A DNA stretch of 64,000 nt from Halorubrum coriense DSM 10284 (lineage in GTDB: Archaea; Halobacteriota; Halobacteria; Halobacteriales; Haloferacaceae). The stretch lies in contig NZ_AOJL01000060.1 in NCBI RefSeq assembly GCF_000337035.1, forward strand, positions 286,287 through 350,286, written 5' to 3'. Both the position numbers and the translations under genes were made by a program. Below, one piece after another: positions 37,082 through 44,266 of the stretch. The notes under the pieces are model-generated. The model ran no database searches and was not told the DNA's origin. It saw nothing but the letters and a program-made list of their open reading frames with translations. The stretch's first letter is position 1; each line of letters opens with the position of its first letter.

Positions 37082-37333
37082 GGTGGCGGTTGGTCAGCAG
37101 CTGGATGGACGGCGGCGGTGGGGTATCTTAGAATCTGTGGCCTTAGCCACACCTCTAACCGCCAACCGACCCCCCGGTGTCGGTTCGGCGGCGACGAGCA
37201 GCTCGTCGAGTCTGGATCCACGCTTGTGTTGCGGTCGAGATCGTCCCGAACCCGCCGGTCGAGAGAGTAGATAGTGGCGAGAACAGCCGCAAAAAGGGGT
37301 TCTGGATAGTGTTGCCACTCATGAGGGGCCGCG

Positions 37334-38950
37334 CTATCTGAGCGTCTGACCTTTCCCCCAAGCGCTCCGCACCGGACGGATCTTCGGTCCCGCTGCATCC
37401 CGGTAGTGCGACACCGCCTCTTTCAGCCGCTCCGGATCGCGACCCGCACCGACCCAGAACCGCTTGAGCCGCGTCACCAACTCCGACCAGGACTGATCCG
37501 CGAGGTTCCCCATCCGAACACGGAGGTGCGCCTCGCGCTCGTCGATGTGAATCCCGTTCGCTTGGCAGAACGCGATCAGTTCGTCCGTACGCTCGTCGAG
37601 GGACTCACGCTCGGCGTTTTGGACCGCATTCGCCGCGGCCCCCATTGCGTTCCGCACGCCCTCACGCGCCGCGTCGAGCGCTTCAACGACCTGCTCCGCG
37701 ACGTAGTGCGACCGCAACGCCACCGACCCCTGCTCGCGAACGACCATATCCTCGATTCGTCGGAGTCCGCGGCGCACGCTGTCCGGGTGCCAGTCGTGGT
37801 CCTCCGCGATCTCCGCCGGCGACACGTCGCCGCCGTCCGCGACGAGCGTCTTCAGCGAGTCCCACTCGATCGGCGAGAGCCCGTCGGCAAGCTGGCGCAC
37901 CACCACGTTCCGCTGGTCGCTCTCAACGCGTTCGAGGTTCAGCGGCAGGACTCGTGATCGGTCGACTGTCTCCGCCTCGAAGTACGCGTCTTCGACGAAC
38001 GTCCGCCCGCTCCCCGGTCCGTCGTCGTCAAGCGGCTGCGTGGGGAGCCCCGCCTCGTTCAGCGTCGCGAGGATTGCCTCCTCGAGCTCGTCGGCAATCT
38101 CGTCGTGGTCGACCGGCCGGAGCGTCTCGTCCCACCGACTCGACTGATACGACGCCTCGATCTTCGGGTGCGCGAGTGGGTGTTCATCCGGAAGCGACTC
38201 GGCGTTTCGCGCGTAGTAGTGCTTGAACTCCTTCGGAATCCGGTGGTCGGGGAAACATTCGCGAACGCGTTTCGGCCCGAGCGTCACCGTGTGGTAGTAC
38301 CCGGCCCGCTCGGTGTCGTCCTGAACGAGCTTCCGATACCCGGATCGGTCGCTTTCGAGAAGGTGGCCCATCCGCGCGAGCGGCCCTTCGCGGCCGTGGA
38401 TCGGCCCCGACACGTCCCGGTCGACGCGGACGTACCGCGCCGCGTCGATCACGACGCTGTACTCGTCGTTGCGGTTCTCGAAGTACGTTGAGTCAAGCGT
38501 CACCGCACTCGCCGCGCGCCGGATCACCGACTCCACCGCGTCGAACTCGACGTTCGACGCGTTCACGCGAACGTTGACCGCGTCGCCGAGATCCCACATC
38601 GGCCGCGCGACCGAACCCCCCTCCTTCGATTGGAGACCGCGCCACCGCGGTTGAATGAGCGCCTTCACCTTCCGCTCGCCGACCTCGTCGTCGGCGACCG
38701 CGTTCAGCCGGAACTCCCGGAGCGTGTCGAAGTCGACGCGCGTCCCGTCCGGCGTCTCGCCGCCGTCCGGCGGGGCGAGCCCGGATTCCTGATACGAGAG
38801 AGTGACGCGCCACTTCTCACCGTCGAGCGTGAAGCTCCCGCGCCGGCTCCCGGTCGCGTCAACAAGCCGCGCGGCCCCGAACCACGCCCCGAGCCCAGAG
38901 TACACATAGTTCGCCATGTACTCATGCGGGGCCGTCTCAACGGTCTTCAT
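37334..38950 (-). CDS. Island-encoded protein with winged helix, last gene of operon
   Basis: A 538-residue protein starting at ATG 38950, which overlaps the stop of the gene before (ATGA). The N-terminal two thirds match a kind of large protein found in haloarchaeal proviral and plasmid blocks (AGYYHTVTLGPKRVRECFPD, then RIPKEFKHYYARNAESLPDE). Residues about 385-450 look like a winged helix (LSPIEWDSLKTLVADGGDVS, then HPDSVRRGLRRIEDMV). A replication or regulatory role is a guess. It ends the six-gene operon; 252 bp downstream hold nothing I can identify. Confidence 0.75.
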   Translation of the reverse strand: MKTVETAPHEYMANYVYSGLGAWFGAARLVDATGSRRGSFTLDGEKWRVTLSYQESGLAPPDGGETPDGTRVDFDTLREFRLNAVADDEVGERKVKALIQPRWRGLQSKEGGSVARPMWDLGDAVNVRVNASNVEFDAVESVIRRAASAVTLDSTYFENRNDEYSVVIDAARYVRVDRDVSGPIHGREGPLARMGHLLESDRSGYRKLVQDDTERAGYYHTVTLGPKRVRECFPDHRIPKEFKHYYARNAESLPDEHPLAHPKIEASYQSSRWDETLRPVDHDEIADELEEAILATLNEAGLPTQPLDDDGPGSGRTFVEDAYFEAETVDRSRVLPLNLERVESDQRNVVVRQLADGLSPIEWDSLKTLVADGGDVSPAEIAEDHDWHPDSVRRGLRRIEDMVVREQGSVALRSHYVAEQVVEALDAAREGVRNAMGAAANAVQNAERESLDERTDELIAFCQANGIHIDEREAHLRVRMGNLADQSWSELVTRLKRFWVGAGRDPERLKEAVSHYRDAAGPKIRPVRSAWGKGQTLR

Positions 38951-39309
38951 CGCGTGCTCACCTCGCGACGGGGGACCACGATCGGACGCTTCGACCCGTC
39001 GACAAACACCGCACCGAGACGAACCCACGGAGCCCGGTCGGACTCGTCGGTCGGGTCGTCAACGTCAACAGTCGCGGCCTCGGGCGCAATCGCGAGGATG
39101 TACCGACACACCTCGCAGATATACCCGCGGGCGTTGACCGCGTCGCCGTCGACGCGAGTCGGATTCTGGTTCGCGAGCCGGAGCGTCGCGACCGCCGGCG
39201 ATCCGAGCGTCTCGGTCACTTCCTTCTGACACCGCGGGCACGCAGCGTACTTCCGGCTTCCTTCCCAACGCGCCGCGGGTCGTCGGAGTCCGTAAGCGGC
39301 GGTACTCAC
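38947..39309 (-). CDS. Island zinc-ribbon protein
   Basis: A 120-residue protein starting at GTG 39309, which overlaps the stop of the gene before (GTGA). The Cys pairs are CPRCQKEV and CEVCRYI, about 45 residues apart, forming one zinc ribbon. Starting further upstream (39468) would run through the neighbour's coding region and give a low-complexity tail. Function unknown; typical of small proviral zinc proteins. Confidence 0.7.
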   Translation of the reverse strand: MSTAAYGLRRPAARWEGSRKYAACPRCQKEVTETLGSPAVATLRLANQNPTRVDGDAVNARGYICEVCRYILAIAPEAATVDVDDPTDESDRAPWVRLGAVFVDGSKRPIVVPRREVSTR

Positions 39310-39782
39310 GGCTCCACCTCGCTCGGGTGGAAGATCCGTGACCACGCAACCTGCGAACACTCGGGGCGATCGTTTCCGCCCGAGCGCCACGTCGTGATCG
39401 CGTCGTCGACGACGGTCGCGGGAACTAGCTTCATCGCGACCGGCTCGCGGCCGGGCCGCGGCTCGCACACCGCAAAGAGGTAGCTCCCGCCTGCGTCCCG
39501 GAGCAGCTCGTGCTGCTCGCGTCGGAGGTAGAACCGGCCTCGGCGACCGCTCGCGAGCCGCGGGATCGCGCTTTTGATTTCGACGAGTGAACCGACTTCG
39601 AGCAGGCAGATTCCGACGAACGGGAGCTCGCGTGACGGCACGACGAGCGTCTCGGCGCGAGCGTCGACGTGTTCGGTGTCGGTGTCGGGAACGTATGCCA
39701 GCCCGTCGACCGCTTCGAGGACCGCGGCTTCGGCGTTCTCACCCGCTCGCTTCGACGAGACGGGACCACGCGAGCGGCTCAC
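39306..39782 (-). CDS. PD-(D/E)xK-like nuclease-family protein of the island
   Basis: A 158-residue protein, GTG start at 39782 in a GTGA overlap. It has LPFVGICLLEVGSLVEIKSA, where the Glu-Ile-Lys fits the ExK part of a PD-(D/E)xK active site, followed by YLRREQHELLRDAGGSYLFA. Such small nucleases include Holliday-junction resolvases and restriction-like enzymes; the exact activity is not shown. A broken paralogue lies at the other end of the island (35309-35682). Confidence 0.65.
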   Translation of the reverse strand: MSRSRGPVSSKRAGENAEAAVLEAVDGLAYVPDTDTEHVDARAETLVVPSRELPFVGICLLEVGSLVEIKSAIPRLASGRRGRFYLRREQHELLRDAGGSYLFAVCEPRPGREPVAMKLVPATVVDDAITTWRSGGNDRPECSQVAWSRIFHPSEVEP

Positions 39783-40084
39783 GCGAACACCACCACCAAG
39801 TTCACCGCGGCGACCATTGCGCCGATCGCCGCGATCGAGAGCCCGACCCACTCGGGTGCCTCCAGGGCGTCGGCTGCGACCGGCCACGCACCGCAACACA
39901 AGCCGACCACCGAGAGCATCGCGACTGTCGCGGACAACTCGCCCATCGCGAGCAACTCGCGGATGATCGGATTCGCTTCGGCGCTCGGTCCGACTGCTCG
40001 GGCCGCGAGGATCGTCGTCGCCGCGTCGAGAACGCCGTGCGACGTGAAGATCGCGGCGACTTCTCCACTCCGATTGCGACTCAC
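39779..40084 (-). CDS. DUF5658-like small membrane protein of the island
   Basis: A 101-residue protein, GTG at 40084 within a GTGA overlap. The sequence SHGVLDAATTILAARAVG and EANPIIRELL fits the DUF5658 pattern (Asp-Ala..Thr-Thr, Glu-x-Asn-Pro-Ile), followed by two hydrophobic helices (about 48-67 and 77-101). The family is a small membrane protein of unknown function seen in archaeal chromosomes and elements. Confidence 0.65.
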   Translation of the reverse strand: MSRNRSGEVAAIFTSHGVLDAATTILAARAVGPSAEANPIIRELLAMGELSATVAMLSVVGLCCGAWPVAADALEAPEWVGLSIAAIGAMVAAVNLVVVFA

Positions 40085-40200
40085 GCGGACCGCCCCCGTT
40101 CGGCGTCGCGCTCCCAGCGGAGTTGGGCAGCATCGCAGACATGCGGCCGCGGTCCTTGTGCGGGGTCGTACAGCCGGCTCGCGCGAACGAAGGGGCTCAT
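40081..40200 (-). CDS. 39-residue ORF inside the island operon
   Basis: ATG 40200 overlaps the stop of the gene before (ATGA) and its own stop TGA overlaps the next GTG, so it fills exactly the gap between two coupled genes. The product (MSPFVRASRLYDPAQGPRPH and on) is basic with a single Cys. No family. It is called on its position and tight overlaps rather than on sequence features. Confidence 0.55.
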   Translation of the reverse strand: MSPFVRASRLYDPAQGPRPHVCDAAQLRWERDAERGRSA

Positions 40201-40442
40201 CCGGACAGCCCTCCGTTCCACGGTTCGCCGGCGTTGCGGGCGGGGCTCGTCTGCGGGTCCGGCGTGTCGACGTCTTTCCCGGCCGCGCTCCCCTCGCAGA
40301 TCCGCACCCACGAATCGCACTCGGGACAGCGGTGAGCGCGATCGTCGTCGTCACCGTGAACCCGACCGAACCGCGGCGGGAGGTGCGACCCGCACTCCAG
40401 ACAGACCCCGGACTCGTCCGGCTCTACCCGGAGGTCCATCAT
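40197..40442 (-). CDS. Small Cys4 zinc-finger protein, first gene of island operon
   Basis: An 81-residue protein; ATG at 40442 with another ATG directly after it (40439). GVCLECGSHLPPRFGRVHGD followed by HRCPECDSW gives two CxxC pairs spaced by about 23 residues. This pattern, CxxCGxHV..RF.RV.GD...CxxC, closely matches small zinc proteins (DUF7563-like) common in haloarchaeal viruses and plasmids. It starts the operon that runs to 37334. The 177 bp upstream to the tRNA hold its promoter, not clearly located. Confidence 0.72.
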   Translation of the reverse strand: MMDLRVEPDESGVCLECGSHLPPRFGRVHGDDDDRAHRCPECDSWVRICEGSAAGKDVDTPDPQTSPARNAGEPWNGGLSG

Positions 40443-40619
40443 GCGGAAAACACCCCGGCGTTGGTGGGATCGATCACCCGACGCGAAGGGGTCGCGATCG
40501 GTGACGTATTCAACCCGATTTTAGGACCGGGTTCGGAAGGAACCGATTCGTCCGATTCCGTAGGGTAGCAGGTTTCTACTGTAGAATTGGCATTAGTCGT
40601 GGAACGGTTCGTGAGTAAG

Positions 40620-40692
40620 CGGGCGCGACGGGATTTGAACCCGCGGCATCTTGGTCCGGAACCAAGTGCTCTGTCCGCTGAGCTACGCGCCC
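40620..40692 (-). tRNA. tRNA-Arg (anticodon CCG)
   Basis: A 73-nt tRNA on the minus strand. Acceptor stem GGGCGCG (40686-40692) pairs with 40621-40627; discriminator G at 40620. Anticodon stem CTTGG/CCAAG closes the loop TTCCGGA, giving anticodon CCG. The T-arm has GGGTTCAAATCCC. No intron. A TATA-like GCGTTAAACGC lies at 40717-40727. The accessory island starts directly after its 3' end. Confidence 0.96.
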
Positions 40693-40716
40693 TCACGACC
40701 GGATATCCGCGGCGAG

Positions 40717-40727
40717 CGTTTAACGCT
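40717..40727 (-). promoter_or_regulatory. TATA box of tRNA-Arg
   Basis: The palindrome GCGTTAAACGC lies 25-35 nt upstream of the tRNA 5' end at 40692 and overlaps the stop codon of the truncated transporter gene (40720). Confidence 0.5.
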
Positions 40728-42090
40728 TCTGACTCGGATCGTCGGCCGGGGACCGCGGGTCGGTCTGCCGGTCGAAGGCGTCGACACTGGGGGCGTCCGG
40801 CACCTCGGATCCGCCGTCGGTTCGGGCGCGGTCGGTCGACTCGCCGTCTCCGCCGACGTCGATGGCGCCCGCGGCGGCGAGCAGGCGGCCGACGAACAGC
40901 AATTCGGGGCGGCGCTCGACGACGGCGACCCAGACGAAGAGCGCGGGGGGCAACACGATCAGCGACGCGAGGTACGCGAGCGTGATGCTGGCGGCGGTGA
41001 GCAGGTCGAACTGCCCCAGCACGGGCGTGATGGCCAAGACGAGGACGCCCGTCCCGAGCGCGGTCGTCGCCCACGTGCCGGTGAGCGCGCCGCCGGTCCC
41101 GCGGAGCGTGGTGACCACCGCGGCGTCCACGTCGCCGCCGCGCGAGTACTCGTCGTGGAAGCGGTGCGCGACGTGGACGGTGTAGTCCACCCCGAGCCCG
41201 ATGGTGATCGCGAGGATCGTCGCGGTGATCGCGTTGAACGGGATCCCGCCGAGCCGCATCGTGGCGGTGAGCGTCGCGACGGTGACGGGGACGAGCGTGA
41301 CGAGCCCCAGCGTCGGGCTGCGGAGCAGCAGCCAGAACAGCACGACGAGGAACACCGCCGAGAGCCCGAGCGCGGCCGCCAGCGAGACGATCGCCGACTC
41401 GAAGATGGTGTCGGCAACCGCCTGGAACACGACGATCTGCCCGGTCGCGATCGCGTCCCCGCGGTAGCGGTCGGCCACGCGCCGGGCGTCGGCGGCGATC
41501 TCGGCGTCGCTGGCGTCGGACTCGACGGCGTACACGATCCGCGTCGAGCGGTCGTCGTCCGCGAGGTACTCGCCGGTGAAGTCGTCGTACCCCGAGTCGC
41601 GAAGCTCGGCGTAGATCCGGTCGAGGTTCCGGTTCGGGCGGCCGTCGTCGAGCGCAGACGACTCGACGAGCGCCTCGAACTCGGGGCTCTCCCCGGCGTA
41701 CGCGTCGATCGCGCTCTGGACGCTGTCGGTGCTGGCGCGGCCGTCGACCGCGACGAACGTGTCGGGCGGGTCGCGCTCGGCGCGCGCGAGGCTGCGCAGG
41801 GCGGCGTCGCTGATCATGCGCCGCTCGACGTAGATGGTGACGGTGTCGTCCTCGCTCGTGGCGAAGTTGTCGGAGAGGAAGTTGATCGTCCCCGTCGCGG
41901 TGTACTCGCCGGGTTGGAGCGGACCGGGGAGGTAATCGACGTACGCCGGCTCCTCGCTCGGCGGCAGGAAGTCGTCGTCCTCGAAGGTGGTGTCGACGCC
42001 GGCCCCGTACCCCGCGGCGCCGGCCGTGACGAGCAGGACGATCACGAGGAAGACCGCGAGGGCCCGGAACTCCTCGACCGGCTCCTCGCG
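40720..42090 (-). pseudogene. 5'-truncated RND/MMPL-family transporter
   Basis: Only the C-terminal half of a haloarchaeal RND permease is present. About 455 residues run from a helix (FLVIVLLVTAGAAGYGAGVD) through an external domain to five more helices, with the motif LAITIGLGVDYTVHVAHRFH, then a short tail. The N-terminal half (helices 1-6) is missing. Upstream of about 42090 the frame stays open, but the sequence turns into the antisense of another gene fragment and makes no sense as transporter. Full-length relatives have 12 helices. It is probably inactive. Confidence 0.7.
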
Positions 42091-42402
42091 GCGGTCCGGA
42101 GCGGCGTCGACGTCTCCGTCCTCATCTCGCCGAGCGTGTTCGACGACGCGCACGCCGCCGTCGACGAGGACCGCGCGACGCTGACGATCGCGCAGGGTCC
42201 CTTCGAGTTGCGCGTCACGGAGGACGCGTACGGGAACTTCTACCTCATCGACGGCGAGGAGGTGTGTCTGGAGGTCGCCGACCCGCTCTCGCCCGACCGG
42301 CTGTTCGGCATGCTCGACCTCCGCGACCGAGGGTTCGCGGCGCGCGTGAACGACGGCTTCGAGGCCGCGTGGGCCGAGGGGATGGTCGTCGACGAGGTGT
42401 GA
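42067..42402 (+). pseudogene. 3' fragment of a transcriptional regulator (TrmB/PLD-like)
   Basis: A plus-strand fragment of about 110 residues ending at TGA 42402: ELLDRLLAAVRSGVDVSVLI, then FELRVTEDAYGNFYLIDGEE and DGFEAAWAEGMVVDEV. This looks like the C-terminal ligand domain of haloarchaeal TrmB-like regulators, without any helix-turn-helix part. There is no start codon of its own and it abuts the truncated transporter head-to-head. Confidence 0.55.
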
Positions 42403-42556
42403 CGTCGGCGGAGACGTCCTCTCGCCGACGGAGCGCGGGTCGCGTGTCTCGCGTAGAAGAACGGATCGCGACCTGTTGGTCGCGCTCGTTATCAATCCCG
42501 ATATTGAAGGGGCGCGCTTTTATCCGCCCGCGTGCGTACGACCGATAGAACAGATA

Positions 42557-44266
42557 GTGACCCTCCGTCCATCCGACACGTCGACGCCGGACCGCGGCGG
42601 CGACGAGGGCGACACCCCCGGGGTCGACGACCGGAGCACGGCCGACGCACCGACCGACGACGCCGAGCGATCGGCTCGGCCGACGGGACGCGTCGGGGGC
42701 GGAGCGGCGTCGGGCGGCCCCGAGACCGCCGACCACGCGTCAGAGGCGGTCGACCCGTCGCCCGGGGGCGGGCGCTCCTCCGGAGAGGGGCGGTCGCCCG
42801 AGGCGGACCGGTTCCTGCTCGCCGTCGCCGTGGACGGCGAGGTGCTGTTCGCCGGGCCGTCGGTCCCGGACGTCGTCGGCGTCGAGCGCGACGCGCTCGT
42901 CGGGAGCGACCTCCTCGACCGCGTCCACCCGAGCGACCGCGACCCGGTGGCCGACGCGCTGTCGGCGGTCGCGACGACCCGGACGGTCACCCACCGCGTC
43001 CGCCGCGCGAGCGGCGGGTACGCGTGGGTCGAGTCGGTCGTCGACGAGGAGCTCGCCCCGGAGTTCGGCGGGCGGATCGTCACGGTCCGCCGCGTGGACG
43101 TCGACCGGACCTTCCCGGAGCGCTACCGCGCCTTCCTCGAGTACGGCAGCGACCTCGTCACGGTCGTCGACGACGACGGCCTCATCGTCTACGAGAGCCC
43201 CTCCGTCGAGGAGGTGCTCGGCTACGAGCAGGGGTCGACCGTCGGGCGCTCCCCGCTCGGGTACGTCCACCCGGACGACCGCGAACGCGTGACGGAGCGG
43301 TTCTATCGCGCGCTCAACGAGCCCGACGCGGCGCCCACGCTGGAGTACCGCTACCGCGCCGCCGACGGCGACTGGGTCTGGCTGGAGTCGCGGACGCGCT
43401 CGCTGCCGGCCGACAGTCCGGTCGGCGAACTGCTCGTCAACTCCCGCGACGTCAGCGCGCGGAAGGCCCGCGAGCGGCGGCTCACCGACCGCAACGAGCG
43501 GCTCGACCGCTTCGCGAGCATCGTCTCGCACGACCTCCGGAACCCGCTGTCCGTGATCCGCGGGTCGATGGAGATGGCGCGGCTGCGCGGCGAGACCGAC
43601 CCCCTCGAACGGGGGGAGCGCGCCGTCGACCGGATCGACCAGCTCGTCTCGGAGCTGCTCACCCTCGCCCGACAGGGGACCGGGATGGACGATCCCACCC
43701 AGTTCGCGCTCGCGAGCGTCGCCCGCGACGCCTGGGAGACCGCCGCCGAGGGCGACGCCGACGCGGAGCTGGTCGTCGCCCGCGACGCGCGGGTGTACGG
43801 CGACCGGGGGCGGATGCGACAGGCCCTCGAGAACCTGTTCCGCAACGCGACCGAGCACGCGCGGCCGCCCGACGCCGCGGGCGAGTCACCCGGCGACGAC
43901 GCCGCGGACGGGACGCGGGACGACGCCGCGGCCGAGGCGTCGGACGACGACCCGCTCACGGTCCTCGTGACGGCCACGGACGGCGGGTTCCTCGTGGCCG
44001 ACGACGGGACCGGCGTCGACCCCGACGACCGGGGGTCGGTGTTCGACTCGGGGTTCACCACCCGGGCGGACGGGACCGGGTACGGGCTCGACATCGTCCG
44101 CGAGGTCGTCGAGGCGCACGGGTGGACGATCGAACTCCGCCGCGACGCCGACGGCCACATCGGGCTCCCGGACGGGCGGCGGCTCCGGCCCCCGGAGGGC
44201 GCGTGTTTCGAGGTGTGTGCCCCCGGTCCGGCCGACGCCGACCCGGACGAGCCGTGGATCGACTGA
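42557..44266 (+). CDS. PAS-domain sensor histidine kinase
   Basis: A 569-residue soluble kinase starting at GTG 42557; CTTTTATCC at 42517-42525 serves as TATA. After an 80-residue disordered, acidic N terminus come two PAS-like domains (about 85-185 and 188-305; the second has YESPSVEEVLGYEQG and YRYRAADGDWVWLES). The phospho-acceptor His is at about 325 in [14 protein letters not shown]-box QALENLFRNATEHA, G1 VADDGTGVDPDD and G2 GTGYGLDIVREV complete the kinase. A disordered insert separates the N- and G1-boxes. No response regulator adjoins. Confidence 0.92.
   Translation: MTLRPSDTSTPDRGGDEGDTPGVDDRSTADAPTDDAERSARPTGRVGGGAASGGPETADHASEAVDPSPGGGRSSGEGRSPEADRFLLAVAVDGEVLFAGPSVPDVVGVERDALVGSDLLDRVHPSDRDPVADALSAVATTRTVTHRVRRASGGYAWVESVVDEELAPEFGGRIVTVRRVDVDRTFPERYRAFLEYGSDLVTVVDDDGLIVYESPSVEEVLGYEQGSTVGRSPLGYVHPDDRERVTERFYRALNEPDAAPTLEYRYRAADGDWVWLESRTRSLPADSPVGELLVNSRDVSARKARERRLTDRNERLDRFASIVSHDLRNPLSVIRGSMEMARLRGETDPLERGERAVDRIDQLVSELLTLARQGTGMDDPTQFALASVARDAWETAAEGDADAELVVARDARVYGDRGRMRQALENLFRNATEHARPPDAAGESPGDDAADGTRDDAAAEASDDDPLTVLVTATDGGFLVADDGTGVDPDDRGSVFDSGFTTRADGTGYGLDIVREVVEAHGWTIELRRDADGHIGLPDGRRLRPPEGACFEVCAPGPADADPDEPWID

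Follow-up and report, generated by a model that had tools for sequence, protein, structure and literature searches.

Most of a divergent transporter-regulator module in Halorubrum coriense was lost, very probably by one deletion between copies of a 7-bp repeat

In Halorubrum coriense DSM 10284 a single deletion, private to this lineage, very probably removed the front of an RND/MMPL transporter gene, the whole of a CARDB-domain gene, the intergenic promoters and the front of a TrmB-like regulator gene. Its ends were joined at the 7-bp repeat GACCGCG, and both remnants are probably dead. Pseudogenising deletions of this sort are ordinary; this one is resolved unusually well and has several parallels in the genus. 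The window, by which the whole analysed stretch of 64,000 nt of contig NZ_AOJL01000060.1 is meant, belongs to genome G000, and the features of the locus are listed in Table 1.

Table 1. Features at and around the deletion junction (positions within the window).
Feature	Position	Strand	Basis or remark
tRNA-Arg (anticodon CCG)	40619..40692	-	ARAGORN; fixed left border of the interval
TTTAACGCTTCTGACT, probable tRNA-Arg promoter element overlapping the MMPL stop codon (40720-40722)	40719..40734	-	Conservation; promoter role putative
C-terminal half of RND/MMPL transporter, 445 aa plus stop, first ~420 codons absent	40720..42057	-	Pfam MMPL
Deletion junction GACCGCG, single copy of the 7-bp direct repeat	42052..42058	.	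Both flanks in the sister genome G049 carry GACCGCG
C-terminal 116 codons plus stop of TrmB-like/DUF7436 regulator, first 152 codons absent	42052..42402	+	DUF7436
PAS-domain histidine kinase, intact right border	42476..44266	+	Pfam PAS, HisKA, HATPase_c; orthologue adjoins the module in relatives

The original prediction had placed the C-terminal half of an MMPL transporter on the minus strand head to head with the C-terminal part of a regulator on the plus strand, both without their 5' parts, with a junction near 42070. Domain matches and alignments to intact orthologues bore this out and placed the junction, where the two remnants meet, at 42052-42058. The MMPL remnant (40723-42057, minus strand) matched Pfam MMPL with an E value of 3.8e-17 and aligned to residues about 419/420-869 of the intact 869-residue protein of H. 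distributum JCM 10118 (G017) and other relatives. In MMPL/RND transporters the MMPL repeat occurs twice, and each repeat comprises a membrane bundle and a large exoplasmic domain; the intact orthologue showed two matched MMPL stretches, while the remnant showed a single one, from the second half. The regulator remnant (42052-42399, plus strand) matched DUF7436 with an E value of 9.8e-24 and corresponded to residues 153-268 of the intact 268-residue orthologue. It lacked the N-terminal TrmB helix-turn-helix, which lies at residues 4-71 of the intact protein. An open frame of 583 codons (40651-42402, plus strand) runs antisense to the MMPL remnant and into the regulator remnant; it is an effect of the high G+C content and might wrongly be annotated as a single long protein. 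The two truncated genes themselves should likewise be annotated as fragments and not as new short families.

The module was searched for in 52 genomes of the genus Halorubrum. The intact locus has the order tRNA-Arg, MMPL gene (minus strand), CARDB gene (minus strand), regulator gene (plus strand) and histidine kinase gene. In H. distributum JCM 10118, for example, the same tRNA and kinase enclose genes for an MMPL protein of 869 residues, a CARDB-domain protein of 600 and a TrmB-like/DUF7436 regulator of 268. All three genes were intact and in place in 16 of the 52 congeners (G005, G015, G016, G017, G022, G046, G047, G049, G050, G052, G054, G060, G062, G064, G065 and G067). In each of these 16 a complete CARDB gene lay between the MMPL gene and the divergent intergenic region, and the intact MMPL and regulator genes were never adjacent. 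The proposed history, a divergent regulator-transporter pair struck by a single deletion, therefore stood as to the one deletion and the removal of both N-terminal parts with the shared promoter region, but not as to the ancestor, which was no two-gene pair; the third gene, lost entirely, had been missed. Regulator and transporter are nevertheless divergent members of one three-gene module, though not immediate neighbours.

By profile, the intact transporter resembles MMPL/RND transporters of the HAE3/HpnN kind, of which the window copy retains the second half only. It matched Pfam MMPL with an E value of 1.2e-39 and TIGR00921 (HAE3) below the cut-off of that model, and its best sequence relative among solved structures was HpnN (6wu0, E 9.1e-11). 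The intact regulator has the architecture of TrmB-type archaeal regulators, with a TrmB helix-turn-helix (E 3.1e-19) and DUF7436 (E 1.3e-37), whereas the window copy retains only part of DUF7436. The CARDB-domain protein is probably exported. The module arrangement is probably old, since a similar order of MMPL, CARDB, CARDB and regulator genes, with 28-43% identity, was found in G025, which belongs to another family of the same order. Two intact loci had altered surroundings. In G022 (L064) most of the adjoining histidine kinase gene was gone, which is a deletion of the right neighbour, and in H. trapanicum (G064, L091) the tRNA-Arg and the intact MMPL gene were separated by about 1.9 kb of additional sequence.

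The nearest sister genome, G049, carries the intact module. An rpoB' tree of 28 genomes paired it with the window with a support of 100/97, and an MMPL tree did the same with a support of 100/99. G049 is a metagenome-assembled genome, and its contig begins inside the tRNA. The window and G049 were collinear, with identities of 91.9% to the left of the junction and 91.6% to its right, and exactly 3,807 bp were absent between the two flanks. In G049 coordinates the lost segment comprises 1,259 bp of the MMPL gene (about 420 codons), the CARDB gene in its entirety, the 282-bp divergent intergenic region and 152 regulator codons. The microhomology that had been anticipated between 42050 and 42095 was found as GACCGCG, present at both break ends in G049 and also in G050, of which the window, in the one strain of its species in which the junction was read, retains one copy. 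Four of five relatives compared earlier had GACGGCG in the left flank, and by themselves they would imply a repeat of only 3 bp; the sister genome decides for 7 bp. When breakpoints were drawn at random within the same two genes, a repeat of at least 7 bp was obtained with P = 0.0024 (200,000 draws).

The best reading of the mechanism is end joining at microhomology. One deletion of 3,807 bp would have taken the first ~420 MMPL codons, the CARDB gene, the divergent, promoter-bearing region of about 280 bp and the first 152 regulator codons, and the break ends would most likely have been joined at GACCGCG by microhomology-mediated end joining or by slippage; slippage and short-repeat recombination are possible alternative routes. 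End joining in Haloferax volcanii is described as producing plasmid deletions of 6-977 bp at microhomologies of 3-5 bp, independently of Ku and also in a radA mutant (PMC2700283), and chromosomal deletions by microhomology joining are described under CRISPR self-targeting (PMC7521656). The window resembles these cases in the short repeat at both ends, the single retained copy and the haloarchaeal host (PMC2700283; PMC7521656), but differs from the published plasmid deletions in size (3,807 bp), in repeat length (7 bp) and in lying in a natural chromosome. Cases such as this one allow repair by microhomology, which in Haloferax has been studied with plasmids and at CRISPR-cut loci, to be examined in natural chromosomes. 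The module itself was not found in the titles and abstract openings of the literature on haloarchaeal RND transporters and CARDB proteins, on Halorubrum MMPL and TrmB proteins and on Halorubrum gene loss and microhomology, and the available part of PMC11078007 mentions neither MMPL nor RND.

A gap of this kind could also have arisen from two or more deletions, or from a mobile element that was inserted and then lost. A smaller deletion occurring first would leave the same end state, and larger losses are seen in other lineages. However, the window has one clean junction without inserted bases and with the same repeat at both ends, and its sister shows no partial intermediate, so that a stepwise history is improbable and one deletion is preferred.

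Less probable still is that the short forms are functional and that selection maintains a half-transporter together with a regulator devoid of its DNA-binding domain. Both frames are free of internal stops (445 and 116 codons), possible in-frame GTG starts lie at 42045 for the MMPL frame and at 42136 for the regulator frame, and comparison of the MMPL remnant with the sister gives a dN/dS of 0.30. Open frames over a short divergence are, however, also what a recent deletion predicts, and this one may be recent. The deletion took the promoter region and the helix-turn-helix, the sister genes are full length, and every other lineage is truncated differently. The pattern of change is also indistinguishable from that of the neighbouring gene. 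The ratio of non-synonymous to synonymous changes in the MMPL remnant was 13:6 along the branch of the window and 5:13 along that of the sister (p 0.02); the corresponding ratios for the intact neighbouring kinase were 12:8 and 2:8 (p 0.058). For the regulator remnant the counts were 4:4 and 3:0 (non-significant), and a pooled test gave p 0.14. Relaxed selection was therefore rejected as proof of pseudogene status, since the intact kinase shows a similar excess of non-synonymous changes on the window branch. The remnants are probably dead because the regulator lacks its DNA-binding domain and neither gene has its original start or promoter, and they are presumably not expressed.

An assembly artefact in a species that really carries the intact module is the least credible reading. 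An assembler might in principle be misled by a repeat of 7 bp, but this length is far below usual assembly overlaps, and the junction is deep within a contig of 424 kb. The two other MMPL-like places in G000 are paralogues of 43-48% identity, no separate N-terminus of the regulator orthologue occurred among the matches listed for G000, and scars of this type, with different ends, are present in three relatives.

The interval between tRNA-Arg and kinase was read in 45 of the 52 genomes; in the other seven it was not located or not read there. The 45 intervals comprised 16 with the intact module, eight with remnants (the window, G021, G044, G058, G042, G063, G012 and G051), four with a different CARDB-MMPL pair, one with another MMPL gene and 16 without a match to the three proteins, among them G007, G040 and G008. 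At the DNA level a short MMPL tail was also kept in G003 and possibly in G007, G018 and G055. When only losses were allowed, 12 were counted on the 28-genome rpoB' tree, whose genomes were chosen non-randomly, for having an orthologous gene or a remnant, with some neighbours added; with regain allowed there were 10 changes on this tree, and six were forced by well-supported branches alone. The rpoB' match in G022 and G050 (L135-L138) was split into two overlapping open frames, by a frameshift or a sequencing error.

Four deletions, in the window and three other lineages, had both ends inside the MMPL and regulator genes. The window retains the MMPL protein from residue ~420 and the regulator from residue 153, with 3,807 bp lost at the 7-bp repeat. 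In H. tebenquichense (G021) the ends were at MMPL residue 824 and regulator residue ~69-72, with 4,780 bp lost at a 16-bp repeat (P 5e-6). H. ezzemoulense DSM 17463 (G044) had ends at 801 and ~100, a loss of ~4.85 kb and 4-5 bp of repeat as read from the alignment. In Halorubrum sp. Atlit-26R (L162) the ends were at 590 and 184, with 4,415-4,417 bp lost and a repeat of 1-4 bp depending on the reference. Short genes kept as stable units in relatives were not found; every remnant had different ends. As H. ezzemoulense retains more of the regulator and less of the MMPL gene than the window, neither scar can be derived from the other by further loss, and the intact G049 is closer to the window on the tree than H. 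ezzemoulense is. Together these loci form a clean natural record of the loss of a haloarchaeal module, with exact ends, a short repeat, an intact sister and parallel cases at the same site.

Other genomes showed further rearrangements of the locus. In G058 (L096) two lesions disable the module: about 100 bp are deleted within the MMPL gene, and the middle of the regulator gene is lost, with about 90 bp of upstream sequence occurring a second time where this middle was. In H. salsamenti (G012, L068/L158) only 43 regulator residues were left in the usual interval, and another CARDB-MMPL pair, with identities of 32% and 47%, lay beyond the tRNA-Arg, on its far side. The different CARDB-MMPL pair of G041, G045, G009 and G043 (L147, L148, L154, L155) lies on the opposite strand in the same tRNA-Arg/kinase interval, with MMPL proteins 47-50% identical; the site seems to accept more than one version. 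In H. sodomense (G055, L097) the interval held a plus-strand MMPL gene (34% identity) and a TrmB-like match (28%), perhaps a replacement after loss.

Why the module was lost so often may be asked. It is conceivable, though only as a tentative idea, that carrying the module is a cost or becomes a disadvantage, for example as a virus or halocin target or through a harmful partial module, and that Halorubrum for this reason loses it repeatedly and as a whole. The interval from the tRNA-Arg promoter to the kinase would then be a deletion-prone site at which deletions between short repeats recur and take away the promoter together with parts of all three genes.

The tRNA-Arg bordered the interval in the 44 genomes read for it. 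The motif TTTAACGCTTCTGACT upstream of it was exact in 35 of 44 and near-exact or degenerate in 39 of 44 genomes, including genomes without an MMPL gene there, and by its conservation it is probably the tRNA-Arg promoter. If so, deletions reaching the tRNA would be unfit, which would account for where the left ends lie. The conserved bases beside the tRNA were also considered as proof that empty loci had once held the module; this was rejected because the motif also occurs in genomes without any sign of the module. No second copy of the 3' end of the tRNA-Arg was found in the 64-kb window. The region left of the tRNA-Arg (37122-40618) was unlike that of most relatives. Its blocks 37122-38967 and 39772-40618 matched H. 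xinjiangense (G067) at 90%, with about 800 bp of difference, and from these matches the region appears to be an island common to the window and G067.
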